From: Rhizobium sp. CB3090
Lineage (GTDB): Bacteria; Pseudomonadota; Alphaproteobacteria; Rhizobiales; Rhizobiaceae
Assembly (NCBI RefSeq): GCF_029714285.1
Contig: NZ_CP121663.1
Span: 124,001-188,000, forward strand
Length of the DNA stretch: 64,000 nt
Reading direction: 5' to 3'
In this document: positions 8,056 through 24,965 of the stretch, piece after piece
Layout: each line of letters opens with the position of its first letter
Numbering within the stretch: the first letter of the stretch is position 1
Program-made: the position numbers and the translations under genes
Notes under the pieces: generated by a model
Database searches by the model: none
Seen by the model: the letters and a program-made list of their open reading frames with translations, nothing else
What the model was told of the DNA's origin: nothing

Positions 8056-8446
8056 GGGGATACGCAAACAGGGATTGACGGATCATGCCTTTGCGAGACG
8101 GCAGGAGACATCATGTCCGCTATGCGCTGCGATGTAAGTTCTAACGCCCGAGGTTATAAACTATTGTTAACGGCGGCAGCGCAAATGTTGCCTTTACAGC
8201 AAACCATGCGCGAATCGGCTACGCACGGCGCAATTTGCTCGGCCGGCATGGCTCGATGGAAGCGGACTGGCCGGCGGGATATCAGCCGCGTTCAGATCCG
8301 AATGCAGGGCTGACAGTCTTGCAGATCGACGCGGGTTGAATTGCCAACCGCCGATAGTGTGTGGTACGCCATAATACGATTCTTATGAAATCGATGCCGA
8401 ACGGAAGTCGAGCTTGCGAAACACGTCCAACATTTGAGGTGCAGGA
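8056..8446. other. Intergenic region upstream of the GntR gene
   Basis: 391 nt between two divergent genes. No credible gene is seen. The only clear element is the GntR-type operator at 8361-8372, 75 nt before the regulator start. Confidence 0.6.
8361..8372. promoter_or_regulatory. Candidate GntR operator (copy 1)
   Basis: GTGGTACGCCAT matches the two operators before the downstream cluster (consensus rTGG-yAyr-CCAT). Its place just upstream of the GntR gene suggests autoregulation. Confidence 0.6.
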
Positions 8447-9142
8447 ATGAGCGGTGCCCTGAAGGACGCAGCGATCAGAGTGGAGCGTCCCGCAAAGACG
8501 TTGCGAGAGCTTGCTCTCGACAAGGTTCGCGAGGCCATCGTGAACGGGTATTTTCGCCCGGGAGATCGACTTGTCGAACGTGACATGTGTGCCCAGCTCG
8601 GTGTGAGCCGGACGATCGTGCGCGAAGTTCTGCGGCATCTGGAATCGGAAGGGCTGGTTGCCAATCTGCCGAACAAAGGCCCGATTGTCGCCCAGCTCGA
8701 TCTCGACGAGGCCAAGCAGATCTATGAGATCCGCGGTGTGCTCGAGGGTATGGCGGCGCGATTATGCGCGCAGCGCGGAAGTCCCGAGATTGTCGCGGCG
8801 CTGGAAACGTCGCTGCAGGGAATCCGCGACAGCTACCGCGACAAGGACATGCCCGGAGTGCTGGCGCACACGTCTTCTTTCTATCAAACCCTATTCACCA
8901 TGGTCGACAGACATGTCGCCTGGGGTGTCGTCAACCTCCTCACGGTGCGAATAAACCATCTGCGGTCGATGACGATCAAGACGAAGAACCGCGACATCGA
9001 GGGCCCGCGCCAGATGGCGAAGATCGTGGAAGCGATCCGCCGTGGTGACGGGGAGGGGGCCTACAAGGCTGCCATGGACCACGTTGCCGCCGCCAGCGCC
9101 ATTGCGGAAGCGGTTCTATCCGCAAAGGAATCCGCCGGATAG
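8447..9142 (+). CDS. GntR-family regulator (FadR/FCD subfamily)
   Basis: 231 aa. A winged helix-turn-helix lies at about residues 20-85 (GDRLVERDMCAQLGVSRTIV, then LRHLESEGLV). An all-helical FCD effector domain lies at about 95-220 (IYEIRGVLEGMAARL). Such regulators repress catabolic operons and are released by a pathway metabolite. It precedes the catabolic cluster at 9664-20282 in the same direction but is separated by 521 nt containing two operator copies. A third copy precedes its own gene. It is therefore the likely specific regulator of that cluster. Confidence 0.92.
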   Translation: MSGALKDAAIRVERPAKTLRELALDKVREAIVNGYFRPGDRLVERDMCAQLGVSRTIVREVLRHLESEGLVANLPNKGPIVAQLDLDEAKQIYEIRGVLEGMAARLCAQRGSPEIVAALETSLQGIRDSYRDKDMPGVLAHTSSFYQTLFTMVDRHVAWGVVNLLTVRINHLRSMTIKTKNRDIEGPRQMAKIVEAIRRGDGEGAYKAAMDHVAAASAIAEAVLSAKESAG

Positions 9143-9306: not shown

Positions 9307-9318
9307 ATGGTATGCCAT
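9307..9318. promoter_or_regulatory. Candidate GntR operator (copy 2)
   Basis: ATGGTATGCCAT is a near-perfect palindrome 20 nt after a TTGACA hexamer (9282-9287). It would block the promoter that reads into the small frame at 9344-9451 or the cluster. Confidence 0.6.
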
Positions 9319-9343
9319 ATTAAATAATAAGGTGGAGCATCGT

Positions 9344-9451
9344 ATGAAGTGCATTGCATGCCTCCCAACGCCCACCCGTATGCAAAGATATCCGAGCAGC
9401 CAGCGCCAAAGCCGCGCCAGACGCCGCGTTTGGAGAGAGCGGGCGGGCTGA
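9344..9451 (+). CDS. Possible 35-aa arginine-rich leader peptide
   Basis: A short frame (MKCIACLPTPTRMQR..., ending ERAG) starts 8 nt after an AGGTGGAG ribosome-binding site. It lies 25 nt downstream of an operator-bearing promoter. It has about ten arginines and matches nothing I recognise. It could be a leader peptide, a decayed gene start, or chance. Confidence 0.25.
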   Translation: MKCIACLPTPTRMQRYPSSQRQSRARRRVWRERAG

Positions 9452-9606
9452 CTGATATCCGTCCGAAGTGGCTTACATCGACGTTGAAGTCTTCGTGATC
9501 TGAAGGAGGCGTATGTCGGCGGCTTCGTTCGCGCTCCGGCAAGCATTTGATTTTGCTGAGTTATTTTTATGTTTACGTTGAATCTTTGCAGCGGAAAGGA
9601 ATCGGC

Positions 9607-9637
9607 TTGACACTTTTATATTATGGCATACCATAAT
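9607..9637 (+). promoter_or_regulatory. Predicted promoter of the catabolic cluster
   Basis: TTGACA at 9607-9612 is perfect. The -10 is either TACCAT (9629-9634, spacing 16) or CATAAT (9632-9637, spacing 19). Either overlaps the operator at 9623-9634, the geometry expected for repression by the GntR protein. The first gene starts at 9664. Confidence 0.5.
9623..9634. promoter_or_regulatory. Candidate GntR operator (copy 3)
   Basis: ATGGCATACCAT is the core of a longer inverted repeat (9621-9636, TTATGG...CCATAA). It overlaps the -10 region of the cluster promoter. Confidence 0.65.
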
Positions 9638-9663: not shown

Positions 9664-10266
9664 ATGACCATTCAAATTCGCAAGACCGGGCTGCAGATCG
9701 AGACGACGCTGATCGAGGGTGGCAAGGCGGCGCAGGTTCCGCTGAAGCTGTTTACCGCTTACGCCGTCGTGAAGAATCCTTGGGCGGGACGCGGTTTCGT
9801 CGAAGACCTGAAGCCCGAAATTCACGCGGCTGCGCCTGTTCTCGGCGAGCTTTTGACCAAGATGATCATCGAGGCCGTCGGCTCCGGCGGCGCGGTCGAA
9901 GGGTATGGAAAATCCGCAGTGGTCGGTCTGGACGGCGAGCTCGAGCATGCCTCGGCACTGATCCACACGCTTCGCTTCGGCAATCACTATCGTCATGCCG
10001 TTGGCGCGAAATCCTACCTCGCCTTCTGCAATACGCGCGGCCCTGCCAATGCGCCGATCATGATCCCGCTGATGGACAAAAACGATGAAGGGCGCCGCTC
10101 GCATTATCTGACGATCCAGACCGCAATCCCGGATGCGCCTGCAGCCGATGAAATTGTCGTGGCGCTTGGCGCATCCGTGGGTGGACGTCCGCATCATCGC
10201 ATTGGCGACCGTTACCAGGATCTCAAGGATCTGGGCCAGGACGTCGCCAATCCCGCCGGCGTTTGA
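9664..10266 (+). CDS. AA_synth/DUF1185-family protein
   Basis: 200-aa protein of the family labelled 'amino acid synthesis' (PF06684). Evidence is the start IQIRKTGLQIETTLIEGGK, the region KNPWAGRGFVEDL and the C-terminal GGRPHHRIGDRYQDL. The biochemical role of the family is not established as far as I know. It is cytosolic (no signal peptide or TM). It is the first gene after the GntR operator and is followed directly by an alpha/beta hydrolase, flavin reductase and LLM monooxygenase. A catabolic or ring-handling role is therefore more likely than biosynthesis. GAGGTG precedes the ATG. Confidence 0.8.
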   Translation: MTIQIRKTGLQIETTLIEGGKAAQVPLKLFTAYAVVKNPWAGRGFVEDLKPEIHAAAPVLGELLTKMIIEAVGSGGAVEGYGKSAVVGLDGELEHASALIHTLRFGNHYRHAVGAKSYLAFCNTRGPANAPIMIPLMDKNDEGRRSHYLTIQTAIPDAPAADEIVVALGASVGGRPHHRIGDRYQDLKDLGQDVANPAGV

Positions 10267-10283
10267 AAAGGCTGGATGCTGAC

Positions 10284-11120
10284 ATGCTGACCGTTGGATC
10301 AACTGCGCCGGGCGCTTCCGCAAAGACCAACTGGGTCTTTGTAAGGAACAAGACTGCGGGTGGAACGGCCTATCACGAAGCCGGCAACGGCGAGCCGCTT
10401 GTCCTGATTCATGGTGTCGGCATGCGGCTTGAAGCCTGGGCGCCCCAGATTCTGGCCCTGTCGGCAAGCCATCGCGTGATCGCTGTCGACATGCCCGGCC
10501 ATGGTGAAACTGCCCGCCTACCGGTCGGAAGTCGCCTTGAGCAATTCGTCGCGTGGTTCGGGAAGTTCCTGGACGAAATGGCGATTGAGACCGCAAATAT
10601 CGCCGGCCACTCGATGGGTGCGCTTGTGTCCGGAGGTGCGGCGGCAACGTTCGGCAACCGAATCAAGCGCGTGGCGTATCTCAACGGCGTCTACCGGCGT
10701 GACCCGGAGGCAAAAGCGGCGGTGCTGGCGCGTGCCGCGGCCATTCCGCTGATGGGTGTGGATAAGGAAGGCCCGTTGCTTCGATGGTTCGGCGACGATC
10801 CCGACAGCGTTGTCGCGCGCGACCTGACGCGGAATTGGCTGAACCTCGTCGATCCTGAGGGGTATGCTGTCGCTTATTCGGCATTTGCCGAAGGAGACGA
10901 GACCTATGCCGATCGCTGGAAGGACGTGGCAGCCCCGGCGCTGTTTCTGACGGGATCGGATGATCCCAATTCGACGCCGCTGATGGCGACCCAAATGGCG
11001 GCAATTGCTCCCAATGGCTGGGCGCGGATCGTCGAGGGCCATCGTCACATGGTCAATCTGACGGCCCCCGACATCGTCAATGCGCTGCTCGTCGAATGGC
11101 TTTCAGAGGGGAGGATGTGA
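10284..11120 (+). CDS. Alpha/beta-fold hydrolase
   Basis: 278-aa alpha/beta hydrolase. The oxyanion-hole segment LIHGVGM, the nucleophile elbow AGHSMGA (Ser about residue 110), the acid region TGSDDPNSTP and the catalytic His of EGHRHMV form a complete triad. It likely cleaves an ester, amide or carbonyl bond in an intermediate released by the neighbouring monooxygenase, as RutD or ring-fission hydrolases do. I take the ATG at 10284 with GAAAAGG about 12 nt before it. A TTG at 10263 overlapping the previous stop is the alternative. Confidence 0.88.
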   Translation: MLTVGSTAPGASAKTNWVFVRNKTAGGTAYHEAGNGEPLVLIHGVGMRLEAWAPQILALSASHRVIAVDMPGHGETARLPVGSRLEQFVAWFGKFLDEMAIETANIAGHSMGALVSGGAAATFGNRIKRVAYLNGVYRRDPEAKAAVLARAAAIPLMGVDKEGPLLRWFGDDPDSVVARDLTRNWLNLVDPEGYAVAYSAFAEGDETYADRWKDVAAPALFLTGSDDPNSTPLMATQMAAIAPNGWARIVEGHRHMVNLTAPDIVNALLVEWLSEGRM

Positions 11121-11121
11121 A

Positions 11122-12057
11122 ATGACCGTACAGCAAGCGGACCCAAGAGCACTGCGCGATGCCTTCGGCGCATTTGCGACAGGGGTAACGGTCGTGACAG
11201 CCCAGGATGCGGACGGAAAGCCCATTGGCTTTACGGCGAATTCCTTTACATCGGTGTCGCTCGATCCGCCTCTTTTGCTTGTTTGCCTGGCCAAGACCTC
11301 CCGCAATTACGGGACCATGACGGGTGCGAAGCATTTCGCCGTCAATGTTCTCTCCGAAGGTCAGAAGGATGTCTCCAACACGTTTGCGCGGCCGGTCGAA
11401 GACCGGTTCGCCGCGGTCGACTGGCAAGCAGGCGCTGCCGGCTGCCCGATCCTGGCGAATGTCTCGGCGTGGTTCGAATGCGCTACAGAAAAGCTGGTCG
11501 AAGCGGGCGATCACGTCATCCTGATGGGGCGGATCGAAGCCTTCGAAAACAGCGGACTGAACGGATTGGGTTATGCCCGCGGCGGCTATTTCACGCCGAT
11601 CCTCGCCAGCAAAGCCGTTTCGGCGGCGGCGGAAGGCAATATCGAACTCGGAGCCGTTCTGGAGCGTCATGGCGAGGTTCTTCTTATCGGTGATGATGTC
11701 TTTTCACTGCCGACCTGCGACGGCAAGGACGGAAGCCCCGCTGACATACTTCGGGACTATCTGGAAGAGCTCACCGGTCTTTCGGTGACCATCGGCTTCC
11801 TCTACTCGGTCTACGAGGGCAAGAGCGATGGAAAGCAACACATTGTCTACCGCGCCTTCGCCTCGGAAGGCGAGCCGCGCAATGGCAGGTTCTTGAAGCC
11901 CGATTCGCTGGCCAAGACCCATTTCAAGACAAGTTCGACTGCCGACATCGTTGCGCGCTTCGCGGTGGAGAGCCAACTCGGCAATTTTGGCGTTTATTTC
12001 GGCGACGAGACCGTCGGCACGGTCCGTTCGGTTCCAACAAAGGCGGCACAGCCATGA
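11122..12057 (+). CDS. Flavin reductase with extra C-terminal (Nudix-like) domain
   Basis: 311 aa. Residues about 8-165 are a flavin reductase (FMN-binding split barrel: GVTVVTAQDADGKPIGFTAN, SVSLDPPLLLVCLAKTS, FAVNVLSEGQ). It supplies reduced FMN to the adjacent LLM monooxygenase. Residues about 170-300 form an additional domain. Its stretch LRDYLEELTGLSV and following strand pattern recall a degenerate Nudix fold, but the Nudix box is incomplete. Simple flavin reductases are about 160-190 aa, so this is a fusion. GGGAGG lies before the ATG at 11122, 1 nt after the hydrolase stop. The stop overlaps the next gene start by 4 nt. Confidence 0.9.
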   Translation: MTVQQADPRALRDAFGAFATGVTVVTAQDADGKPIGFTANSFTSVSLDPPLLLVCLAKTSRNYGTMTGAKHFAVNVLSEGQKDVSNTFARPVEDRFAAVDWQAGAAGCPILANVSAWFECATEKLVEAGDHVILMGRIEAFENSGLNGLGYARGGYFTPILASKAVSAAAEGNIELGAVLERHGEVLLIGDDVFSLPTCDGKDGSPADILRDYLEELTGLSVTIGFLYSVYEGKSDGKQHIVYRAFASEGEPRNGRFLKPDSLAKTHFKTSSTADIVARFAVESQLGNFGVYFGDETVGTVRSVPTKAAQP

Positions 12058-13094
12058 AATTCTCTCTTTTCGTTCACATGGAGCGCCTCGACGCCAGCCA
12101 GAGCCACAAGAGCCTATATGAGGAGTTCGTCGCTCTCTGCGAGATCGCCGATAAGGGTGGCATGCATGCCATTTGGACAGGCGAGCATCACGGCATGGAT
12201 TTCACCATTGCACCCAATCCTTTCGTGACCATTGCCGATCTGGCGCGCCGCACATCGCGGGCAAGGCTCGGCACGGGGACGGTGATCGCGCCCTTCTGGC
12301 ATCCGATCAAGCTCGCCGGCGAAGCGGCCATGACCGACATCATCTGTGACGGAAGGCTCGATATCGGTATTGCGCGCGGCGCTTATTCCTTCGAATACGA
12401 GCGCCTGCTGCCGGGTCTCGACGCCTGGGGCGCCGGCCAGCGCATGCGCGAGCTCATTCCGGCGATCAAGGGCATATGGAATGGCGATTACGCCCATGAT
12501 GGGGAGTTTTATAAGTTCCCGTCGACTACTTCGGCGCCGAAGCCCCTGCAACAGCCGAACCCACCGATCTGGGTTGCTGCGCGCGATCCGAATTCGCATG
12601 AGTTCGCCGTCGCCAATGGCTGCAATGTCCAGGTGACGCCGCTCTGGCAGGGCGATGAGGAAGTTGCGGCACTGATGGGCCGTTTCAATGATGCCTGCGC
12701 CAAGAACCCGGACATCGACCGGCCCAAGATCATGCTGCTGCGCCATACCTATGTCGGCTCGACGGAGGCGGACATAGCACAGGCCGCCCATGAACTGAGC
12801 GTCTATTACAACTACTTCTTCGCCTGGTTCAAGAACGAGAAGCCCATCAAGCAGGGCCTGATCGAGCGGATACCCGAAGAGGAGATCGGCGCGAACGCGA
12901 TGCTTTCCGATGCGGTTATGCGCAGCAACAACGTCGTCGGCAATGCCGAGACCGTCATTGCCCGGCTCAAGGCCTATGAAGCCATGGGCTACGACGAATA
13001 TTCCTTCTGGATCGATACGGGCATGTCCTTCGAGCGGAAGAAAGCGTCACTCGAACGCTTTATCGCCGAGGTCATGCCGGCATTTGCGGAGTGA
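12054..13094 (+). CDS. LLM-class flavin-dependent monooxygenase
   Basis: 346-aa luciferase-like (bacterial LuxA/LLM) TIM-barrel oxidoreductase. Motifs: IWTGEHHGMDF, LGTGTVIAPFWHPIKLAGEAAMTD split over residues 75-100, and GRLDIGIARGAYSFEY. It should use FMNH2 from the preceding reductase and O2 to oxygenate or cleave a substrate. LLM/reductase pairs open uracil (RutA/RutF) and pyridine-type rings. It overlaps the reductase by 4 nt and is followed by an aldehyde dehydrogenase. The pathway substrate is not known. Confidence 0.92.
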   Translation: MKFSLFVHMERLDASQSHKSLYEEFVALCEIADKGGMHAIWTGEHHGMDFTIAPNPFVTIADLARRTSRARLGTGTVIAPFWHPIKLAGEAAMTDIICDGRLDIGIARGAYSFEYERLLPGLDAWGAGQRMRELIPAIKGIWNGDYAHDGEFYKFPSTTSAPKPLQQPNPPIWVAARDPNSHEFAVANGCNVQVTPLWQGDEEVAALMGRFNDACAKNPDIDRPKIMLLRHTYVGSTEADIAQAAHELSVYYNYFFAWFKNEKPIKQGLIERIPEEEIGANAMLSDAVMRSNNVVGNAETVIARLKAYEAMGYDEYSFWIDTGMSFERKKASLERFIAEVMPAFAE

Positions 13095-13099
13095 ACCCC

Positions 13100-14563
13100 A
13101 TGCAGCGTTTCCAGTGTTACATCGATGGCGAATTTCTGGACGGAGAGGCCCGCTATCGGAGCATCGATCCTGCCACCGGCAAGGACTGGGCGGATATGCC
13201 GGAAGCGCGTGAGGGGGATGTCGATCGGGCGGTCAATGCGGCCGAAAAGGCGCTCTATGAAGGCCCCTGGTCGAAACTGACCGCCACGCAACGCGGCAAG
13301 CTTCTGTATAAGCTTGCCGATCTGGTTGCTGCCAATGCTCAGAAGCTCGCCGAACTGGAGACGCGCGACACCGGCAAGATCATCCGCGAGACCTCTGCGC
13401 AGATCGCCTATGTCGCCGACTACTACCGTTATTATGCCGGCATCGCCGATAAGATCGAAGGCTCCTACCTGCCGATCGACAAGCCCGACATGGATGTCTG
13501 GCTTCGCCGTGAGCCGATCGGCGTCGTAGCCATGGTCGTGCCCTGGAACAGCCAGTTGTTCCTCTCCGCCGTCAAAATAGGTCCGGCGCTGGCGGCCGGC
13601 TGCACGATGGTCGTCAAGGCGTCCGAGGATGGGCCGGCGCCGCTTTTGGAATTCGCTCGCCTCGTTCATGAGGCAGGCTTTCCGGCGGGTGTCGTCAACA
13701 TCATCACCGGTTTTGGTGCGTCGTGCGGCGCAGCCCTTAGCCGGCATCCGAAGATCGCACATGTCGCCTTCACCGGCGGGCCGGAAACGGCGCGCCATAT
13801 CGTGCGAAATTCGGCCGAAAACCTTGCCTCGACATCCCTGGAGCTTGGCGGCAAATCGCCCTTCATCGTCTTTGCCGACGCCGATCTCGAAAGCGCCGCC
13901 AATGCCCAGGTCGCGGGCATCTTCGCCGCGACCGGACAAAGCTGCGTCGCCGGTTCACGGTTGATCGTGGAGCGGAGCATCAAGGACCGGTTCCTGAATC
14001 TCTTGAAGGACAAGGCGGAGGCGATCCGTGTCGGCACGCCGTTGGACATGGCGACTGAAGTGGGTCCGCTTGCGACGAAGCGCCAGCAGGATCACGTTGC
14101 CGCACTCATCCACAAATCCGTTCAAAGCGGCGCCCGCATTGTCACGGGTGGGCAAATGCCGGAAGGCGAGGGCTTTTACTTCCCGCCGACGATTCTTGAC
14201 TGTGACGGCGTGGCATCCCCCTCGCTTGCCGAGGAGTTCTTCGGTCCTGTGCTGTCCGTCGTCGCATTCGACACCGAAGCCGATGCGCTGAGGCTCGCCA
14301 ATGATACCCGCTACGGCCTGGCTTCCGGCGTCTTCACCCAGAACCTCACCCGCGCCCATCGCCTGATGAAAGGCATTCGCGCCGGTATCGTCTGGGTCAA
14401 TACCTATCGCGCCGTATCGCCGATCGCACCCTTTGGCGGATTTGGTCTTTCCGGCCACGGCCGGGAAGGCGGCCTGGCTGCGGCGCTCGATTATACCCGC
14501 ACGAAGACGATCTGGCTCAGGACGTCGGACGATCCGATCCCCGATCCTTTCGTCATGAGGTGA
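13100..14563 (+). CDS. Aldehyde dehydrogenase
   Basis: 487-aa NAD(P)-dependent ALDH with all catalytic residues: Asn of PWN (about 150), Glu of LELGGKSPF (about 248), and Cys of TGQSCVAG (about 282). It would oxidise an aldehyde formed after ring or chain cleavage by the LLM monooxygenase. The stop of the LLM gene overlaps a possible GTG start (13091). GGAG at 13088-13091 is properly spaced (8 nt) only for the ATG at 13100, which I use. Confidence 0.93.
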   Translation: MQRFQCYIDGEFLDGEARYRSIDPATGKDWADMPEAREGDVDRAVNAAEKALYEGPWSKLTATQRGKLLYKLADLVAANAQKLAELETRDTGKIIRETSAQIAYVADYYRYYAGIADKIEGSYLPIDKPDMDVWLRREPIGVVAMVVPWNSQLFLSAVKIGPALAAGCTMVVKASEDGPAPLLEFARLVHEAGFPAGVVNIITGFGASCGAALSRHPKIAHVAFTGGPETARHIVRNSAENLASTSLELGGKSPFIVFADADLESAANAQVAGIFAATGQSCVAGSRLIVERSIKDRFLNLLKDKAEAIRVGTPLDMATEVGPLATKRQQDHVAALIHKSVQSGARIVTGGQMPEGEGFYFPPTILDCDGVASPSLAEEFFGPVLSVVAFDTEADALRLANDTRYGLASGVFTQNLTRAHRLMKGIRAGIVWVNTYRAVSPIAPFGGFGLSGHGREGGLAAALDYTRTKTIWLRTSDDPIPDPFVMR

Positions 14564-14568
14564 TGCCG

Positions 14569-14901
14569 ATGTTCTATGAAATCCGGACCTATCGGCTGAA
14601 GAACGGTGCGATCCCGCAATATCTGAAGGTCGTCGAGGAAGAAGGGATCGCCATTCAGAAAGCACATCTCGGCAATCTGGTCGGCTATTTCTATTCGGAG
14701 ATCGGGACCATCAACGAGATCGTTCATATCTGGGCCTATGCGAGCCTCGACGATCGCGAGGAAAGGCGCCAGAGGTTGGCGTCCGATCCACAATGGCAGG
14801 CTTTCCTGCCGAAGATACGCGACCTGATCGAAGTGGCCGAGAACAAGATTATGAAGCCGGCGAATTTCTCTCCTCTCGGGAAGAGCGCGCCAGCCGCATA
14901 A
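14569..14901 (+). CDS. NIPSNAP-family protein
   Basis: 110-aa NIPSNAP domain protein (FYEIRTYRLKNG at the N terminus, then IWAYASLDDREERRQRLASD), a ferredoxin-like dimeric alpha-beta fold. The molecular role is uncertain; small NIPSNAP proteins often accompany oxygenase or catabolic genes. GAGG at 14557-14560 is 8 nt before the ATG at 14569, favouring it over the ATG at 14563. It ends the enzyme part of the cluster; the importer follows after 38 nt. Confidence 0.85.
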   Translation: MFYEIRTYRLKNGAIPQYLKVVEEEGIAIQKAHLGNLVGYFYSEIGTINEIVHIWAYASLDDREERRQRLASDPQWQAFLPKIRDLIEVAENKIMKPANFSPLGKSAPAA

Positions 14902-14939
14902 AACATGCCTGTAAGACAACAATACAAGGACAAGGGAAC

Positions 14940-15950
14940 ATGAAAAGAACAATTGCACTCGCGGCTTTCGCCGCAATACTGGCTGTGTCGGGGACTGCAA
15001 AGGCCGATACGCTCGTCTTCACGAGCTGGGGAGGAACGACTCAGGACGCGCAAAAAGTCGCCTGGGCCAATCCGTTCACGGACAAGACCGGCATCGTCAT
15101 CGCACAGGACGGACCTACCGATTACGGCAAGCTGAAAGCTATGGTCGAAGCGGGCCAGGTCAGCTGGGATGTCGTCGACGTCGAAGGCGACTACGCCGCA
15201 CAGGCAGGCAAAGACGGGCTGCTGGAAAAGCTGGATTTTTCGGTCATCGACAAGTCCAAGCTCGATCCCCGTTTCGTCACCGACTATTCCGTCGGCAGCT
15301 TTTACTATTCCTTCGTGATCGGCTGCAATGCGGATGCCGTGAAAGCCTGCCCCAAGACCTGGGCCGATCTCTTCGATACAACGAAATTTCCCGGCAAGCG
15401 CACCTTCTACAAGTGGTCGGCTCCGGGCGTGATCGAAGCGGCTCTGCTCGCTGACGGCGTTCCCGCAGACAAGCTTTACCCGCTCGATCTCGATCGCGCT
15501 TTCAAGAAGCTGGACACGATCAAATCGGATATCATCTGGTGGTCCAGCGGCGCTCAGTCGCAACAGCTTCTCGCATCCGCCGAGGCGCCCTTCGGCAGCC
15601 TGTGGAATGGCCGCATGACCGCACTCGCCGCCAGCGGCGTCAAGACGGAAACCTCCTGGGAACAGAACATCACGGCCGCCGATTCACTCGTCGTTCCAAA
15701 GGGGGCGCCGAACTTTGAAGCCGCGATGAAGTTCATTGCACTGGCAACGTCGGCCCAACCCCAAGCCGATCTGGCGAAGGCGACCGGCTACGCGCCGATC
15801 AATATCGACTCGGCCAAATTGATGGATCCGGCGACGGCCAAGACCTTGCCGGATCAGCAGACCGCCAGCCAGGTCAATGCCAGCATGGCTTATTGGGCCG
15901 AAAATCGCGATGCCATCGGCAAGCGGTGGTACGCTTGGCAGGCCAAGTAA
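14940..15950 (+). CDS. PotD-like ABC transporter binding protein
   Basis: 336-aa periplasmic binding protein of the spermidine/putrescine (SBP_bac) type. A signal peptide MKRTIALAAFAAILAVSG... should be cut after AKA (about residue 22). The mature protein starts DTLVFTSWGGTTQDAQKVAW. Start: ATG 14940, a standard secretory N terminus preceded by AAGGGAA. With the two permeases and ATPase downstream it forms a complete PotDBCA-like importer. Such systems carry polyamines, opines, aminobutyrate-like or other small cationic or zwitterionic compounds. Being embedded in the cluster, it probably imports the cluster's substrate. Confidence 0.92.
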   Translation: MKRTIALAAFAAILAVSGTAKADTLVFTSWGGTTQDAQKVAWANPFTDKTGIVIAQDGPTDYGKLKAMVEAGQVSWDVVDVEGDYAAQAGKDGLLEKLDFSVIDKSKLDPRFVTDYSVGSFYYSFVIGCNADAVKACPKTWADLFDTTKFPGKRTFYKWSAPGVIEAALLADGVPADKLYPLDLDRAFKKLDTIKSDIIWWSSGAQSQQLLASAEAPFGSLWNGRMTALAASGVKTETSWEQNITAADSLVVPKGAPNFEAAMKFIALATSAQPQADLAKATGYAPINIDSAKLMDPATAKTLPDQQTASQVNASMAYWAENRDAIGKRWYAWQAK

Positions 15951-15971
15951 GCTGAAGAAACTCCGAGGCAG

Positions 15972-15999
15972 CACCGCGAGCGTCATTCTGCTCGCGGTG
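15972..15999 (+). promoter_or_regulatory. Strong intercistronic hairpin after the binding-protein gene
   Basis: CACCGCGAGC (15972-15981) pairs perfectly with GCTCGCGGTG (15990-15999) around an 8-nt loop, 22 nt after the stop. No U-run follows. It probably stabilises the upstream mRNA and/or attenuates reading into the permeases. Confidence 0.6.
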
Positions 16000-16069
16000 T
16001 GTGGCGCAGGTTCTAAATCTTCCTGGGAGCTGGCGCCGTTGTCTGATCCTACGGCGGGAAAGGATTGCC

Positions 16070-16942
16070 ATGTCGACCTATATTGACGTCGCCAGTGAAA
16101 CTGCGACTACATCCAAGGCCATCAGGCCTACGGGCTTCGGCGAAATCATACCGGCGCTGCTTTTCGTCGGGATCTTCTTCATTGTCCCGGTCGTCGCGCT
16201 CCTGTTGCGAAGCGTGTTGGAACCGGTTGTCGGCTTCGGCAACTATGCCGAACTGCTGGGATCGGCGACTTATCTGAAGATATTCGCCAATACCTTCATC
16301 GTCTCCGGTCTGGTCACCGCGATTTCGCTGCTGATCGGCTTTCCCGTCGCCTGGACGCTGGCAATCATGCCCTCAAGACTGGCTTCGCTGATTTTCGCAG
16401 TCCTGTTGCTATCCATGTGGACCAATCTGCTGGCCCGAACCTATGCCTGGATGGTCCTGCTTCAACGCACCGGACTGATCAACAAGATGTTGATGGGAAT
16501 GGGACTGATCGACCAGCCGCTGCCGCTCGTCAACAACCTGACCGGTGTGACGATCGGCATGACCTATATCATGCTGCCGTTCATCATCCTGCCGCTCTAC
16601 GGCGTCATCAAGAAGATCGACCCGACGGTCCTGCAGGCGGCAGCACTTTGCGGAGCGAACCGCTGGCAATGTCTGACCCGCGTCCTTCTGCCTTTGGCCG
16701 CGAGAGGCATGGTCGCCGGTGCGTTGATGGTCTTCGTCATGTCGCTTGGCTACTACGTTACCCCGTCGCTTCTCGGCGGAACGGCGAACATGATGCTGGC
16801 CGAACTCATCGCCCAGTTCGTGCAGTCCCTGGTCAACTGGGGAATGGGCGGTGCGGCGGCCCTGGTCCTCCTTGTCGTCACGCTTTCGCTCTATGCCGTC
16901 CAGCTACGGCTGTTCGGTGTGCAGAACACGGGAGGGCGTTGA
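16070..16942 (+). CDS. PotB-like ABC transporter permease
   Basis: 290-aa inner-membrane permease (BPD_transp_1) with six predicted membrane segments. The EAA-loop region is near residues 195-215 (DPTVLQAAALCGANRWQC). It is the first half of the importer channel. I start at ATG 16070, preceded by AAAGGA; upstream in-frame codons lack a ribosome-binding site. The next permease gene starts 2 nt after the stop. Confidence 0.9.
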   Translation: MSTYIDVASETATTSKAIRPTGFGEIIPALLFVGIFFIVPVVALLLRSVLEPVVGFGNYAELLGSATYLKIFANTFIVSGLVTAISLLIGFPVAWTLAIMPSRLASLIFAVLLLSMWTNLLARTYAWMVLLQRTGLINKMLMGMGLIDQPLPLVNNLTGVTIGMTYIMLPFIILPLYGVIKKIDPTVLQAAALCGANRWQCLTRVLLPLAARGMVAGALMVFVMSLGYYVTPSLLGGTANMMLAELIAQFVQSLVNWGMGGAAALVLLVVTLSLYAVQLRLFGVQNTGGR

Positions 16943-16943
16943 C

Positions 16944-17744
16944 ATGCTGCTCAATTTCGATCGCCTCGGCTGGTGGAAGTATGTGCTTGTGGCGGTGACC
17001 ATCGTGACGGCTGCCTTCCTGCTGCTGCCCATCCTCTTCATCGCCGCGCTTTCCTTCGGATCTTCGCAGTGGCTGATCTTTCCGCCTCCGGGCTGGACGC
17101 TGCAATGGTACAGCCAGCTTTTCGCCGATCCGCAATGGCTGGCATCGGCCTGGACGAGCTTCAGGATCGCCTCGATCGTCACGGTTCTTTCCGTGTTACT
17201 GGGGCTGGTCACCTCCTTCGGCCTGGTGCGCGGAACCTTCATGTTCCGCGACGCGCTGAAAGCGCTTTTCCTGACGCCGATGATCCTGCCCGTCGTCGTC
17301 CTTGCCGTTGCCCTTTACGCCTTCTTCCTGAGGATGGGTCTCGGCGGCACCCTGATCGGCTTTGTCATTTCACACCTCGTTCTGGCACTGCCCTTCTCCA
17401 TTCTTTCCATTTCCAACGCGCTCGAAGGCTTCGACAAATCGATCGAGGATGCAGCGGTGCTCTGCGGCGCCTCGCCCCTTGAGGCGAAGATCAGGGTGAC
17501 CCTACCGGCCATCAGCCATGGACTGTTTTCGGCCGCGGTTTTCTCGTTCCTGACATCCTGGGACGAAGTGGTGGTGGCGATCTTCATGGCAAGCCCCACG
17601 CTACAGACGTTGCCGGTGAAAGTATGGGCCACCCTCCGGCAAGATCTGACGCCGGTCATCGCTGCGGCATCGTCCCTTCTCATCCTCTTGACGATCACTT
17701 TGATGGCGCTTGTCGCTATTGCACGCAAGGTACTGAAATCATGA
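16944..17744 (+). CDS. PotC-like ABC transporter permease
   Basis: 266-aa second permease of the importer, BPD_transp_1 family, about six membrane segments. The EAA motif region ALEGFDKSIEDAAVLCGASP is near residue 150-170. The GGAGGG site ends a few nt before the ATG at 16944. Its stop overlaps the ATPase start (ATGA), so the channel and motor are co-translated. It pairs with the preceding permease as PotC pairs with PotB. Confidence 0.92.
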   Translation: MLLNFDRLGWWKYVLVAVTIVTAAFLLLPILFIAALSFGSSQWLIFPPPGWTLQWYSQLFADPQWLASAWTSFRIASIVTVLSVLLGLVTSFGLVRGTFMFRDALKALFLTPMILPVVVLAVALYAFFLRMGLGGTLIGFVISHLVLALPFSILSISNALEGFDKSIEDAAVLCGASPLEAKIRVTLPAISHGLFSAAVFSFLTSWDEVVVAIFMASPTLQTLPVKVWATLRQDLTPVIAAASSLLILLTITLMALVAIARKVLKS

Positions 17745-18817
17745 ACGAGTCTTTCCTACAGATCAGAGGCATCCGCAAGGAATACGGTCCTGTCGTCGCG
17801 GTGCAAGATGTCAATCTCGAGGTTCAGCGTGGCGAGTTCCTGACCTTTCTCGGACCGTCCGGTTCGGGCAAAAGCACGACGCTCTACATCTTGGCCGGCT
17901 TCGAAAACCCGACGAAAGGCGACATACTCCTCAATGGACAAACGCTGCTGTCTACGCCGTCGCATAAGCGCAATATCGGCATGGTCTTCCAGCGCTATAC
18001 CCTGTTTCCGCATTTGACGGTCGGCGAAAACATCGCTTTTCCCCTTAAGGTACGGCGCAAATCCAAGGCGGAAGTCGACAGCAAGGTGAAGGAAATGCTG
18101 CGGCTTGTCCGGCTTGAAGGATTCGAGGATCGCAAGCCTGCGCAGATGTCGGGGGGCCAGCAGCAGCGCGTCGCGCTCGCCAGGGCTCTCGCCTATGACC
18201 CGCCGGTGCTTTTGATGGACGAGCCGCTTTCTGCGCTCGACAAGAAGCTTCGTGAGGAAATTCAGCACGAGATACGCCGGATCCACCAGCAGACCGAGGT
18301 GACGATCCTTTACGTCACGCACGATCAGGAGGAAGCATTGCGTCTTTCCGATCGCATTGCCGTCTTCTCCAAGGGCGTCATCGACCAAATCGGAACCGGG
18401 CCGGAACTTTACGCCAATCCCCGCACGCGCTTTGTTGCCGAATTCATCGGCGACAGCGATTTTATCTCCTGCGATCTGCTGTCATCGACGGATGGGCACG
18501 CGACGATCTCGCTGGGCGGCGACGCGGTCTTCAGAATCCCCGTGCATGGCAATGCCATTTCCGGCAAGAGGGGAGCCTTGATGCTGAGGCCCGAACGCAT
18601 TCGGTTGTCGCGAAACCGCGTGCAGAAAGGCAGCCTCGCGGCAACTGTCAGCGATATCACTTTCCTCGGCAACAATGTTCATGTTGCCACCGAGACTGCC
18701 GGCGGTGAGGCATTGGCGGTGCGTCTTCCCTTCGGCCATGAGGCCATCACAGGGCTCAGCCGCGGCGAACAGGTGCATTTGGATTTCGATCCGGATGCCG
18801 CTCACGTATTTTGCTGA
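17741..18817 (+). CDS. PotA-like ABC transporter ATPase
   Basis: 358-aa ATPase. Walker A GPSGSGKST (about residues 38-46), Q-loop in MVFQRYTLFPHL, signature SGGQQQR, Walker B LLMDEPLSALD, switch His in VTHDQEEAL. A C-terminal TOBE regulatory region (about 275-350) follows. It energises the PotDBCA-like importer. Start ATG 17741 overlaps the permease stop by 4 nt. The gene continues straight into the semialdehyde dehydrogenase (10 nt gap). Confidence 0.95.
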   Translation: MNESFLQIRGIRKEYGPVVAVQDVNLEVQRGEFLTFLGPSGSGKSTTLYILAGFENPTKGDILLNGQTLLSTPSHKRNIGMVFQRYTLFPHLTVGENIAFPLKVRRKSKAEVDSKVKEMLRLVRLEGFEDRKPAQMSGGQQQRVALARALAYDPPVLLMDEPLSALDKKLREEIQHEIRRIHQQTEVTILYVTHDQEEALRLSDRIAVFSKGVIDQIGTGPELYANPRTRFVAEFIGDSDFISCDLLSSTDGHATISLGGDAVFRIPVHGNAISGKRGALMLRPERIRLSRNRVQKGSLAATVSDITFLGNNVHVATETAGGEALAVRLPFGHEAITGLSRGEQVHLDFDPDAAHVFC

Positions 18818-18827
18818 AAGTCGTCAG

Positions 18828-20282
18828 ATGAAGCTCAATGATCTCTCACTCTTTCGCCAGGCGTGTCCGATCGCGGGCAATTGGATCGAAGCGAAGGATC
18901 ATCAGGCGACGACCATCCGCAATCCGGCCACAGGCGAGGCGCTCGGCGCAGTTCCGGATCTCGGTGCGGCGGAAACCGAGGAGGCAATCCGGACCGCCGT
19001 CGTCGCTCAGAAGCTCTGGGCAAAGAAGACCGCGGGGGAGCGCGCTGCCATACTGAAGGTGTGGCATCGCCTGATGATCGAAAATATCGATGATCTGGCA
19101 ATGATCCTGACGCTGGAGCAGGGAAAGCCCTTGGCCGAGGCTAAGGGGGAGATTGCCTATGGCGCGAGCTTCATCGAATGGTTTGCCGAGGAGGCGAGAC
19201 GCATCAACGGCGAAACCATACCCGGCCATCAGCATGACAAGCGGATACTTGTCCTGCGCCAGCCGGCGGGCGTCGTCGCTGCGATCACGCCCTGGAATTT
19301 TCCAAATGCCATGGTGACCCGCAAGGTCGGCCCGGCGCTTGCCGCCGGCTGCGCAGTTGTTCTGAAGCCAGCGCCGCAGACGCCTTTTTCCGCAATCGCG
19401 CTTGCCGTCCTTGGTGAGCGCGCGGGTCTGCCGCCGGGTCTCCTCAACATCGTCACCGGTGATGCTGTAGCGATTGGCGGAGCGTTGACCGCAAGCCCGG
19501 CGATCAGGGTTCTGACCTTCACCGGCTCCACACGCACGGGCGAACTGCTTTATCGGCAATGTGCGCCGACGATCAAGAAACTCGGTCTCGAGCTTGGCGG
19601 CAATGCCCCATTCATCGTGTTTGACGACGCGGACCTCGACGCTGCGGTCGAGGGTGCGATTATCGCCAAATTTCGCAACAACGGACAAACCTGCGTTTGC
19701 GCCAACCGCCTGTATGTCCAGGATAGCGTCTACGAAGCCTTCGCGGCCAAACTCGCCGACGCCGTTGCAAAATTGAAGGTGGGCAACGGGCTCGATCAAG
19801 GCGTCGTTCTTGGCCCGCTGATCGACCAGAACGCCGTCCTCAAGGTTGAAGTGCACATTCGCGATGCGGTGGCCAATGGCGCCGAAGTCATCTCAGGCGG
19901 CAACCGTCACCCGCTTGGCGGCAACTTCTTTGAGCCGACCGTCCTTCGCAACGTCGACGACAGCATGCAGCTTGCCCGCGAGGAAACCTTTGGGCCCGTC
20001 GCGCCGCTCTTCCGCTTCCGCAACGAGAGCGACGTCATCGAACAGGCAAATGACACCGAGTTCGGTCTTGCCTCCTATTTCTATGCGCGCGATTTGTCGC
20101 GCGTATTCCGGGTGGCGGAAGCACTGGAATACGGGATGGTGGGTGTCAACACCGGCCTGATTTCCACCGCCGAGGCCCCCTTCGGAGGCGTGAAAATGTC
20201 CGGCTTGGGCCGCGAAGGCTCGCGCCACGGCATCGAAGAATATACCGAACTGAAATATGTTTGTTTGGGCGGTATATCGTAG
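18828..20282 (+). CDS. Succinate-semialdehyde-type dehydrogenase
   Basis: 484-aa ALDH of the GabD branch. Catalytic Asn in PWNFPN (about 157), Glu in LELGGNAPF (about 255), Cys in GQTCVCANR (about 289). GabD enzymes oxidise succinate semialdehyde to succinate with NAD(P)+. As the last gene of the cluster it suggests that the degraded compound ends as a C4 or C5 semialdehyde entering the TCA cycle. Start at ATG 18828. Other semialdehydes (glutarate type) are possible. Confidence 0.9.
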   Translation: MKLNDLSLFRQACPIAGNWIEAKDHQATTIRNPATGEALGAVPDLGAAETEEAIRTAVVAQKLWAKKTAGERAAILKVWHRLMIENIDDLAMILTLEQGKPLAEAKGEIAYGASFIEWFAEEARRINGETIPGHQHDKRILVLRQPAGVVAAITPWNFPNAMVTRKVGPALAAGCAVVLKPAPQTPFSAIALAVLGERAGLPPGLLNIVTGDAVAIGGALTASPAIRVLTFTGSTRTGELLYRQCAPTIKKLGLELGGNAPFIVFDDADLDAAVEGAIIAKFRNNGQTCVCANRLYVQDSVYEAFAAKLADAVAKLKVGNGLDQGVVLGPLIDQNAVLKVEVHIRDAVANGAEVISGGNRHPLGGNFFEPTVLRNVDDSMQLAREETFGPVAPLFRFRNESDVIEQANDTEFGLASYFYARDLSRVFRVAEALEYGMVGVNTGLISTAEAPFGGVKMSGLGREGSRHGIEEYTELKYVCLGGIS

Positions 20283-20344: not shown

Positions 20345-21727
20345 TCAGGTGATCGAAGCTGTGCCGCCGGAAAGAGGGGAAAGGCGGCCATCGCCGTCGT
20401 CGCGAACAGGCGGAAGAACGATTTCCACCACAAGGCCATTCGGCGTCCGATCCAGCAACGTCAGTTTCCCGCCATGACCTTTCCTGATGATGCCCTCCGC
20501 AGTCGGAAGCCCAAGGCCAAAACTGCCTCCGACTCCGGTCGTGCGAGCCTCATCCGCTTTGAAGAAGGGCTCCAACACCCGAGCCCTGAGCTCATCCGTC
20601 AGGCCCGGACCATTATCGCTCACTCTTACGAATATCCCTTCGTCGCCCGCGTCCTGCAATTCGATATCGATTTGGGTCGCATAGCGGGAAGCGTTTTCAA
20701 CCAGATTGGATATCGCCCTCGTAATCGCCTCGGATTTGCACATGTATTTTAGCCGTCGAGGCCCGGAAAACCGGACATCGATGCCGGTTTCCGAGAAGTC
20801 CGTCGCAATCGTTTGCAGCAGGCTCGACAGGTCCACTTTCCGGGACGGGACGTTGTGGCCTGCGTTTGTGAGAAACGCCAGACTCTCGTTGATCATGCCA
20901 TCGAGCACGGTCAGATCATGGAGCATCTTGCGCTGAAGCTCGGGCTGCTCGCAGCGCTCCGCGCGCATTCGCAATCGCGTTAGAGGTGTTCTGAGATCGT
21001 GGCTGATCGAACTCAGCATTCGCGTCCGACTTTCCGCCATTTGCAATATCCGGCTGCGCATGGTGTTGAGCGATGCGGCGAGGCTTCGAATCTCGGAGCT
21101 GCCTTCCGCCACGAACGGCTTTTCCAGACTGTCATCGGTACTTGCGCGTTCCGCCGCCGCTGCAAAGCGGCCCATCGGCCTGATGATCAGCCAACTGCTG
21201 ACATAGGCGAGCACGATCAGCGGAATGACAATTTTCAGAATTCCACTTGCGACTGCGGGGAAGAACCACAAGGACCGGGAGAAGACGGGCATATGAAAAA
21301 CAAGAGCCCGTTCCTGGTCGACCTTCACGATGAGGGGAACGGATATCGCTTCCTTATCAAAAAGATGACGCAGGCCGTCGAAGAAGTCGTCTTCCAGAGC
21401 GCGTCGCGTTCTCGCGAGAATGTCGGCCGATGTCGCCTCGGCCTCGTCGCGCGTAGAGAGCTGGCCTGCCGGCAGCTTTTCCACCGAGATGTGCAATTTC
21501 GCGGCCAAGCTCAGAGCTGCTGCCTCCTCTTCAGGAGAACGGGCCTCTCGGAATTGATCGGCCACACGCTCGATCCGTCCCGCCAGCAAGCCGATCGCCA
21601 TGCCTTTGTCGTGACGCCCGTAGATAAACGGCTCTGTGGTCGCAGCGACCACGGACACGAGAACGATCAGCAGGAATGCCAGCACGAGGATCTGAGTGCG
21701 GATGGAGGCCATGCGGAGACTTTTCAC
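20345..21727 (-). CDS. Sensor histidine kinase
   Basis: 460 aa. TM1 about residues 10-30; periplasmic domain about 32-155; TM2 about 160-182; HAMP; HisKA with SHDLRTPLTRL (phospho-His); HATPase with NLVENASRY, DNGPG and GLGLP boxes. The ATG overlaps the stop of the response-regulator gene by 4 nt, so the pair is one operon. The periplasmic sensing domain is not one I recognise. It is convergent with the catabolic cluster, so a functional link is uncertain. Confidence 0.94.
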   Translation of the reverse strand: MKSLRMASIRTQILVLAFLLIVLVSVVAATTEPFIYGRHDKGMAIGLLAGRIERVADQFREARSPEEEAAALSLAAKLHISVEKLPAGQLSTRDEAEATSADILARTRRALEDDFFDGLRHLFDKEAISVPLIVKVDQERALVFHMPVFSRSLWFFPAVASGILKIVIPLIVLAYVSSWLIIRPMGRFAAAAERASTDDSLEKPFVAEGSSEIRSLAASLNTMRSRILQMAESRTRMLSSISHDLRTPLTRLRMRAERCEQPELQRKMLHDLTVLDGMINESLAFLTNAGHNVPSRKVDLSSLLQTIATDFSETGIDVRFSGPRRLKYMCKSEAITRAISNLVENASRYATQIDIELQDAGDEGIFVRVSDNGPGLTDELRARVLEPFFKADEARTTGVGGSFGLGLPTAEGIIRKGHGGKLTLLDRTPNGLVVEIVLPPVRDDGDGRLSPLSGGTASIT

Positions 21728-22446
21728 GGCAATTTCTCCACCATGACTGCGAAGAGATAGCCGCCCAGCCGGACAGTCTTGATGAACGTCGGGTCCTTGA
21801 GGTTCGGTTCGATCTTCTGTCGTATCCTGCTGATGTGGACATCGATGCTGCGTTCGACCGGTCCGGCCGATCCGGCATGCGTCATGGACAGAAGCTGGTC
21901 GCGGGTCAGCACTTTGTTCGGATTGGTGCAGAACGCCCAGAGAAGATCGAACTCGGCTGTCGTCATCGACACTTCATCGCCTTCGGCGTCGAACAGTTGC
22001 CGGCTGTTCGGATCGATGCGCCATCCTGCAAAAGTCAGTGGTCCGGATACCTCTTCCTCTCGCCGGGAAAAAGACGCGCGGCGCAGAATGCTTTTGATGC
22101 GGGCGAGCAGTTCGCGGGAGTTGAATGGCTTGGTGACATAATCATCGGCACCCAGTTCAAGCCCAAGAATACGATCGATATCCTCCCGCCGTGCGGTCAA
22201 CATCAAAATGGGGATGGAGCGCGTCGCCCGAAGACGCATGCAAATGCTGAATCCATCCTCACCCGGCAGCATGCCGTCAAGCACGATCAGGTCGAACCTA
22301 TGAAGACGGAGCAGTCGGTCCATCTCGGCGCCATTGGCGACAGATTGGGCAGTGAAACCGTTGTCGGTCACCAACTCGACCAGCATGGCTGCGATATCGG
22401 CGTCGTCTTCGACGATGAGAATATTGGATTGCTCGTAAAGCGCCAT
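21724..22446 (-). CDS. OmpR-family response regulator
   Basis: 240 aa. The receiver domain has acidic pocket VEDDAD and phospho-Asp in VLDGMLPGEDG (about residue 55), Thr in MLTARRED and Lys in YVTKPFNS. A winged-helix DNA-binding domain follows (about 140-235, ending FIKTVRLGGYLFAV). The ATG at 22446 has AAGG 8 nt upstream; a longer frame upstream starts within non-conserved sequence. It is translationally coupled to the kinase and transcribed away from the Omp25-like gene at 22836. Confidence 0.95.
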   Translation of the reverse strand: MALYEQSNILIVEDDADIAAMLVELVTDNGFTAQSVANGAEMDRLLRLHRFDLIVLDGMLPGEDGFSICMRLRATRSIPILMLTARREDIDRILGLELGADDYVTKPFNSRELLARIKSILRRASFSRREEEVSGPLTFAGWRIDPNSRQLFDAEGDEVSMTTAEFDLLWAFCTNPNKVLTRDQLLSMTHAGSAGPVERSIDVHISRIRQKIEPNLKDPTFIKTVRLGGYLFAVMVEKLP

Positions 22447-22835
22447 TTCAAGTGCCTTTCCGTGGTTCGAGTGAGCCCCTCGAGCCTCCGTCATTTCAGC
22501 AATGATTATGTTTGCATGCGGGTAGATCACGCCAGCAACTCCGATGACTGGAAGTCATAAAGATAGCAAAGGAATTCGTGGCGCTGTGTTTGGAAATGTT
22601 GAGATATGTTGCGGAGCTGACGGAGTCTCGGGGGCTGTCGAGATGGAGGCGTGCAGGAAAATCGTGATTTGGTTCGGGATGGCCGGGCGATCGGACAACC
22701 TTCGCATACGTCCTCGCAACATAACTTAACATCAAAAGACACTCCGCAATCTCGGCTCGGGGCATGGTGCATCGTCACGAGCGGGTCGAGCGCTTTGCCT
22801 CGCCCTCTCCCTCGCAAACAAGATGGGGCATCCCT
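22447..22835. other. Divergent intergenic region
   Basis: 389 nt between the response-regulator gene and the outer-membrane gene. It should hold both promoters. I see no gene, RNA or distinctive repeat. Confidence 0.5.
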
Positions 22836-24471: not shown

Positions 24472-24965
24472 GGGGGCCTCCAGATGCGAGCGTTGCACGG
24501 ACTCCGGTTTTTACGCTTACATGACTCTACGCTTGCCATGCCGCGTTGGATGAACGCGGCAGTGCGTCTTTCGACATCAATGCAGACGGATAGAGTTGCC
24601 GAATACTGGAGGCCAAGCTTTTTCCGGATCCTCGCTTGCGCCGAAGCGCGCCTGGAAGACGGATGAAAAGATAAGCCATGACAGTTGCCGCCATCATGGC
24701 GTTATCCGCAGTCCGCATTCTCGATCTGGTACTCCCCAACGGCCTGAAACTGCACAGGCAAACTTGTGCGAACCTTGTAAAGTCCGGCCGTTATGCCGAT
24801 TTCGAGTTCCTTAGCTGGGGGCGTTGGGGCTGCGAGAGGCATGGATCACATCGAGCTGCCAAGCCGAGTTCGCCAGAAACAAAATTCAATAATTCGGCAC
24901 ACACAGAAACAACGAATCTTCCTAGATTCCGCCGGGGCGCCCGTAACGGAAAAGGGATATGGCGA
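24472..24965. other. Intergenic region without recognised genes
   Basis: 494 nt between the EF-hand gene and the glycosyltransferase-like gene. Open frames exist on both strands (one joins the downstream gene in frame from 24678) but lack good start signals and recognisable protein content. AAAGGGA near 24950 serves the gene at 24966. Confidence 0.5.

Follow-up and report, generated by a model that had tools for sequence, protein, structure and literature searches.

Which compound is taken up and broken down by the products of an 11-gene operon on a 64,000-nucleotide stretch of the Rhizobium sp. CB3090 genome (NZ_CP121663.1, positions 124,001 to 188,000; hereafter the window, whose own numbering is used for its features)? 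The operon runs in one direction from 9664 to 20282 with small gaps or overlaps, starting with the gene for an AA_synth (DUF1185) protein and finishing with that for a succinate-semialdehyde dehydrogenase (SSADH). In between are a hydrolase, a flavin reductase, a luciferase-like monooxygenase (LLM), a further aldehyde dehydrogenase, a NIPSNAP protein and an ABC importer (Table 1). A preliminary description, made from the letters alone, had named these genes and their families and had given them one shared operator. Open frames and Pfam or TIGR matches confirm the genes, their order and their families (SSADH scores 700.8 bits against TIGR01780, for a cut-off of 646.35). The operator is real as well: it stands before the operon in two copies, and its 14-base form, TATGGYATRCCATA, has two matches in the window at one mismatch or fewer, where 0.00 are expected. 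The same description had supposed an undescribed pathway in which a flavin-dependent enzyme opens a nitrogen-containing heterocycle on the way to succinate semialdehyde. We propose that the operon is very probably a repressed, substrate-inducible system for the uptake and breakdown of trigonelline (N-methylnicotinate), a plant betaine. This degree of confidence applies to the pathway and not to the importer step, which is weighed separately below. The genome carrying the window has 6.49 Mb in four contigs, and among plasmid sequences the LLM gene of the window has its closest relatives in Rhizobium.

In the type strain of Acinetobacter baylyi (locus L026), the genes for AA_synth, hydrolase, reductase, LLM enzyme and aldehyde dehydrogenase come in the same order as in the window. 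The window proteins are identical to their counterparts at 74% (LLM, over its whole length), 72% (AA_synth), 70% (aldehyde dehydrogenase), 58% (SSADH), 48% (hydrolase, with 122 of 252 aligned residues), 43% (GntR regulator) and 42% (reductase), the alignments spanning 88-100% of each window protein. In protein searches, the top match to the A. baylyi hydrolase has 100% identity and bears the name (E)-2-((N-methylformamido)methylene)succinate hydrolase [Acinetobacter baylyi]. For the A. baylyi LLM enzyme, three of the top four matches (91-92%) carry the name flavin-dependent trigonelline monooxygenase oxygenase component. The window LLM is itself 72% identical to the first Acinetobacter protein bearing that name. 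Among 120 listed relatives out of its 4154, seven JGI entries bear the same name, most of the others being general (LLM class, alkanesulfonate monooxygenase). In a quickly built tree of 26 LLM proteins, the window and A. baylyi enzymes belong to one 17-row group with a support of 86. Because six genes match the A. baylyi tgn cluster, the pathway is not new, and close orthologues of its enzymes have already been characterised. The idea of a flavin-dependent opening of an N-heterocycle that ends in succinate semialdehyde was right, the tgn match pointing to trigonelline.

The literature on tgn agrees with these assignments. TgnA/TgnB is described as the oxygenase by which the aromatic ring of trigonelline is opened (PMC8269262). 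TgnF, a homologue of a DUF1185 protein, is described as stimulating the TgnE-dependent oxidation of succinic semialdehyde in A. baylyi ADP1; the authors of that report saw no such stimulation with their own DUF1185 homologue (PMC7913881). AA_synth is the one DUF1185 gene of the A. baylyi locus, and it ceases to be the stranger to the pathway for which it had been taken. Besides the six enzyme and helper genes, the two clusters share gene order, an adjacent GntR/FCD regulator and, with one mismatch, the operator. They differ in that the A. baylyi regulator gene is divergent, whereas that of the window lies on the operon strand. They also differ in transport: where the window has an ABC importer and a NIPSNAP gene, A. 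baylyi has a cytosine/purine-type permease (PF02133), which follows the aldehyde dehydrogenase and is itself followed by a frame without Pfam match and then by SSADH. Another route considered was the Rut uracil pathway, in which a flavin-dependent ring opening is accompanied by a flavin reductase and an alpha/beta hydrolase. It was rejected on its scores, which are 98.7 bits for RutF (cut-off 254.75) and 55.4 bits for RutD (cut-off 238.5).

The gene set, its order, the operator and the likeness to tgn are seen by comparison, and from these we infer how each reaction would proceed in Rhizobium sp. CB3090. A GtsABCD-type importer would bring trigonelline into the cell. With reduced flavin supplied by the flavin reductase (TgnA), the LLM enzyme (TgnB) would open the pyridinium ring, after which the aldehyde dehydrogenase, which we take to be TgnC, would oxidise the ring-opened product. 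The alpha/beta hydrolase (TgnD) would then yield CO2, formate, methylamine and succinate semialdehyde, and SSADH (TgnE), aided by AA_synth (TgnF), would convert the last of these to succinate. The products of the later tgn steps and the TgnC label are said to come from work by Perchat in 2018. At the DNA, the GntR/FCD protein would sit on TGGYATRCCA over the -10 element, and would be released when the inducer, presumably trigonelline or a product of it, binds.

Rhizobial counterparts connect the operon with growth on trigonelline. The pSymA replicon of Sinorhizobium meliloti 1021 has counterparts of the regulator and of every one of the 11 genes, with SSADH at 61% identity and the others at 67-88%. 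Its LLM counterpart is 88% identical to the window enzyme, and the whole of pSymA gives one match to that enzyme at E 1e-10 or better. An S. meliloti strain without pSymA is reported not to grow on trigonelline (PMC4207669). This is not proof that the cluster is the cause, and pSymA carries no second LLM gene of the kind. The locus for trigonelline growth on pSymA is presumably that of the old trc genes. Nodulation genes are found nearby: nodL, noeA and noeB adjoin the operon counterpart in Ensifer canadensis (L101, 310-4349) and lie about 7 kb from it in S. meliloti (L009, 7747-11781), whereas in the window a CHASE4-GGDEF-EAL gene (minus strand, 5929-8067) is upstream of the regulator.

Rhizobium johnstonii 3841 (pRL10) matches the window in the regulator, in all 11 genes and in their order, at 77-94% identity. 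We take these to be pRL100242-pRL100252, a numbering that they would fit with the binding protein seventh. White in 2009 reportedly described pRL100242-pRL100252 as the gts operon, controlled by GtsR and coding for two monooxygenases, a hydrolase and dehydrogenases to which no substrate was assigned. In that work, gtsABCD alone is said to have given high uptake of gamma-aminobutyrate (GABA), which was inhibited by aromatic compounds of similar charge spacing, and the operon is said to have been suspected of processing a more complex GABA precursor. Elsewhere, pRL100248 is listed as an uptake system of the polyamine/opine/phosphonate type (PMC3333776). The relevant passages on gts in R. leguminosarum and Agrobacterium are about GABA transport and leave the substrate of the enzymes unnamed. 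The Agrobacterium counterpart is placed around Atu4232-Atu4243. Its neighbourhood of Atu4242 and Atu4243 is probably the same as that of the window, since the NIPSNAP protein matches Atu4242, the binding protein matches Atu4243, and the two tags are consecutive.

Whether the importer belongs with the enzymes was asked of two sets of genomes. The family search covered 151 genomes including the window's own (thresholds E 1e-150 for the LLM protein and E 1e-120 for the binding protein) and found the LLM gene in 20 and the binding protein in 18. All 18 binding proteins, the window's own counted, lie 1.5-2.7 kb from the LLM gene, on the same contig and strand (gaps computed by hand). The other two LLM genomes (G039 and G135) hold the enzyme set, with an LLM at 62-64%, and show no importer in the stretch read. 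The phylum search covered 398 genomes, again with the window's own (E 1e-90 for the binding protein, E 1e-120 for the LLM protein). It scored the five best first-look candidates per genome, which makes its absences weaker than those of the family search, and it found the binding protein in nine genomes and the LLM gene in 17. Binding protein and LLM gene are within 2 kb in five of the nine; in G206 an LLM gene (49-50%) is about 7.4 kb away on the opposite strand. The other three seemed at first to have no LLM gene. This was an artefact of the threshold, and the apparent counter-evidence to linkage fell because the three neighbourhoods do carry LLM genes, at 46-49% identity and 5.4-6.4 kb away, two of the matches being clipped by the end of the stretch. 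All nine binding proteins are within 7.5 kb of a TgnB-like gene. In 11 of the 17 genomes with the LLM gene, the search found no importer of this type. Where the importer occurs the enzymes are close by, whereas the enzymes can do without it. In four genomes of one family of the phylum (L107, L108, L109 and L110), importers about 60% identical to that of the window sit amid LLM, flavin reductase and GntR genes.

A wider view of the enzymes comes from the best 80 of at least 547 relatives, which are loci of named genomes found through an Acinetobacter LLM protein and are weighted towards Acinetobacter, Burkholderiales and Rhodobacterales. The five core genes are complete in 78 of these loci, and the order AA_synth-hydrolase-reductase-LLM-aldehyde dehydrogenase is kept, with its direction, in 74. 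The binding protein occurs in 34 (26 of the 58 loci that have 21,000 bases or more), and NIPSNAP in two. The preliminary description had proposed a neighbourhood survey, and in the family search the importer does stay with the enzymes, for all 18 binding proteins. Its remark that NIPSNAP falls outside the known pathway also stands, there being no match in the A. baylyi locus. The importer is not an unknown one, however: it is a Gts-type transporter whose binding protein resembles Atu4243.

By sequence, the binding protein is closest to Atu4243 and the importer is of the rhizobial Gts type; the alignment with PDB entries 4eq7/4euo is gapless over residues 25-337 (591 bits), and 4EUO is Atu4243 according to a figure legend (PMC6829864). 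Relatives with solved structures exist for AA_synth too, those of the binding protein being close. Gts is the named GABA transport system of R. leguminosarum and Agrobacterium, and labelled GABA is taken up in another genus by a more distant relative (<40%) (PMC7449393). The residues of the GABA site, numbered as in a sensor whose parent is a relative of Atu4243 from Pseudomonas, are W9, T13, F100, Y102, W202, R205, D228 and Y264; all eight are kept in the window protein when placed by motif and spacing instead of by alignment to the sensor, in which Y102 is an engineered change (PMC12999171). Across 44 binding proteins from fetched loci (at least 55% identity, 80% coverage), seven of these positions never vary and at the eighth 42 proteins have Y and two have F, a count that is silent on linkage because the loci were fetched through their enzymes. 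Five aromatics together with an arginine (W9, F100, Y102, W202, Y264 and R205) would suit a ring betaine. In addition, atu4243 expression is repressed by the product of Atu4232, and a 2014 review gives the mechanism of derepression as unknown (PMC3907764). Because of the linkage, the aromatics and arginine of the site and this open question of the inducer, we lean towards the transport of trigonelline by the Gts-type importer. We incline, slightly less firmly, to the general view that Atu4243-type importers naturally serve trigonelline, with GABA as a second or look-alike ligand and with trigonelline or a product as the inducer of the GntR protein.

Several points weigh against trigonelline, whether as the substrate of the operon or as the ligand of the importer. 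Within the operon, NIPSNAP has no place in the proposed scheme; neither it nor the ABC importer has a match in the A. baylyi locus; and the hydrolase and the reductase are no more than 48 and 42% identical to those of A. baylyi. In the four importer genomes whose LLM is at 46-50%, AA_synth and hydrolase are nearby in one, and an aldehyde dehydrogenase match in three. As to the importer, Atu4243 is reported to have a high specificity for GABA (PMC3907764), and the sensor from its Pseudomonas relative showed selectivity for GABA over the other compounds with which it was tested (PMC12999171). In this sensor, the amino group of GABA is in contact with the aspartate of the site (PMC12999171), a contact that a quaternary nitrogen could not make.

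The reported selectivity and the aspartate contact are what best sustain the strongest alternative, in which the importer carries GABA only and trigonelline enters by another way. This is compatible with the rest of the trigonelline scheme, and it would also accord with the A. baylyi locus, which has no such importer, and with the 11 LLM genomes of the phylum in which none was found. We regard it as a real though less probable option. The importer is tightly linked to the enzymes in both the family and the phylum, its site would have the aromatics and arginine for a ring betaine, and the word 'trigonelline' is missing from the main text of the sensor paper (PMC12999171), all of which speak against a GABA-only importer. 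Among the titles and abstract openings listed, no published link between a GABA-type importer and trigonelline was found; the papers of Perchat (2018), White (2009) and Planamente (2013) may hold one.

It is improbable that the whole operon is devoted to GABA or to a larger compound that yields it, the importer taking up GABA, SSADH finishing its breakdown and the monooxygenase set degrading the precursor. The binding protein does have Atu4243, described as GABA-selective, as its nearest relative and keeps the complete GABA site; the Gts name and the labelled-GABA uptake of the distant relative point the same way (PMC7449393). A GABA-only operon was rejected as the principal explanation, since none of the 11 operon proteins matches an aminotransferase family and the enzymes match tgn. 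The trigonelline pathway reaches succinate semialdehyde without GABA. The precursor idea is that reportedly voiced by White together with gtsABCD-dependent GABA uptake. The unexplained derepression of atu4243 would itself fit an inducer other than GABA (PMC3907764).

Least probable of all is that the LLM enzyme has changed its substrate to a different N-heterocycle such as homarine, pyridine or N-methylnicotinamide: LLM enzymes are generally known to switch substrate easily and the family itself contains paralogous clusters at about 40% that have AA_synth and, in one of them, NIPSNAP, but the window LLM is 74% identical to the A. baylyi enzyme and shares its tree group with the paralogues apart, the pSymA counterpart accompanies growth on trigonelline, and TgnA/TgnB have been reasoned to be unlikely to act on homarine (PMC8269262). 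Ruegeria pomeroyi is reported to grow more weakly on homarine than on trigonelline (PMC8269262). These paralogous clusters, of a type found on pAt, are known here from A. fabrum and R. phaseoli and share LLM, flavin reductase, aldehyde dehydrogenase, hydrolase and AA_synth genes with the window, and in A. fabrum also NIPSNAP. They differ from it in gene order, transporter and regulator genes, and their LLM enzymes are just 40-41% identical to that of the window. Membership of the window LLM in their clade was rejected on this identity and on the tree, in which they form a separate long branch that drew a long-branch warning from the program. They probably act on another nitrogen-containing substrate. 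In A. fabrum the NIPSNAP gene of the cluster is near a transporter of the glycine betaine type, and the R. phaseoli cluster is near genes named for ectoine transport and use. Both clusters (L013, 9466-15255, and L016, 4550-12277) combine AA_synth with a carboxymuconolactone decarboxylase.

As regards control of the putative trigonelline operon, the GntR/FCD gene lies just outside the region singled out by the preliminary description and belongs to the gene set. Its product, 80-98% identical to the regulators that precede AA_synth in seven rhizobial records, is likely the repressor of the operon. The two operator copies stand in tandem before the operon, 316 bases apart. The 12-base form of the operator occurs at three places genome-wide, two of them at the operon, and a reversed control pattern occurs at one. 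A promoter scan of the region gave four TTGACA-type sites against 3.2 +/- 1.8 in shuffles, and because this is no excess, the promoter call leans on the conservation of TTGAC with the operator in an eight-row rhizobial alignment.

The operator was then surveyed in 88 loci, two of which were unusable. In 74 of the remaining 86, which come from alpha-, beta- and gammaproteobacteria, TGGYATRCCA is found 30-95 bases ahead of AA_synth; the remainder of these loci contains it 37 times in 1,711,757 bases, or 0.009 times per 420 bases. It is missing in 12, among them A. baylyi with its one-mismatch version. Many of the loci are close kin, and the independent events are therefore fewer than the counts. 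R. johnstonii, R. etli and Rhizobium sp. CB3060 share the upstream copy, at no more than 420 bases from AA_synth; within the same distance it was not found in S. meliloti, E. canadensis and two further Rhizobium records. A small gene behind the upstream operator (a frame of about 35 codons from 9344, found by eye) was considered and rejected, as the rhizobial alignment shows no conservation of the stretch and the two operators of R. etli are 81 bases apart. From sequence comparison we read the arrangement at 9307-9634 as a doubled promoter-operator instead.

The trigonelline pathway is already known, and the role of the importer in it may be the new point. The finding joins this pathway with the work on GABA transport between plant and bacterium. 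If the importer serves trigonelline, then conclusions on GABA sensing and on what the Atu4232 regulon costs in plants would have to be revisited, and iGABASnFR, the sensor derived from the Pseudomonas relative of Atu4243, would rest on a protein from a trigonelline-type operon. Induction by trigonelline would bear on the question of derepression left by the 2014 review (PMC3907764). For rhizobia, the result would mean a plant-betaine locus beside the nodulation genes in E. canadensis and some 7 kb from them in S. meliloti.

Table 1. Features of the putative trigonelline operon and its control region, in window coordinates. The starts at 14940, 16070, 16944, 17741 and 18828 were chosen among in-frame starts.
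Feature	Position	Strand	Basis
GntR/FCD regulator (GtsR / Atu4232 / tgn regulator type)	8447..9142	+	Pfam GntR + FCD
Upstream operator copy, ATGGTATGCCAT	9307..9318	.	TTGACA-type element ahead, read by eye
Promoter-like TTGACA-16-TACCAT, sigma-70 type	9607..9634	+	TTGAC and operator kept in rhizobial alignment
Main operator, ATGGCATACCAT	9623..9634	.	Overlaps -10; core kept before AA_synth in relatives
AA_synth / DUF1185 (TgnF counterpart; SSADH helper)	9664..10266	+	PF06684; 72% to A. baylyi
Alpha/beta hydrolase (TgnD counterpart)	10263..11120	+	Pfam; start TTG 10263 or ATG 10284
Flavin reductase (TgnA counterpart)	11122..12057	+	PF01613; 42% to A. baylyi, position kept
LLM-class monooxygenase (TgnB counterpart)	12054..13094	+	PF00296; 74% to A. 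baylyi enzyme
Aldehyde dehydrogenase (TgnC counterpart)	13091..14563	+	PF00171; 70% to A. baylyi, position kept
NIPSNAP protein, accessory	14560..14901	+	PF07978; near Atu4242, PDB 2ap6
PotD-like periplasmic binding protein, GtsA / Atu4243 type	14940..15950	+	591 bits to PDB 4eq7/4euo
Hairpin, 28 bases, between binding-protein and permease genes	15972..15999	+	Fold of 15945-16080
ABC permease, GtsB type	16070..16942	+	PF00528
ABC permease, GtsC type	16944..17744	+	PF00528
ABC ATPase, GtsD type	17741..18817	+	PF00005 + TOBE_2
Succinate-semialdehyde dehydrogenase, GabD-like (TgnE counterpart)	18828..20282	+	TIGR01780; 58% to A. baylyi

Between the binding-protein and permease genes, the stretch 15945-16080 folds slightly better than its shuffles (z = -1.97; 8 of 200 shuffles as good), and its hairpin may be of the kind often thought to hold binding-protein mRNA in excess. 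Directly after the operon, the minus strand encodes a pair made up of a histidine kinase and a response regulator (20345-22530) and, further on, a serine-rich protein with several EF-hand calcium motifs (23650-24498).

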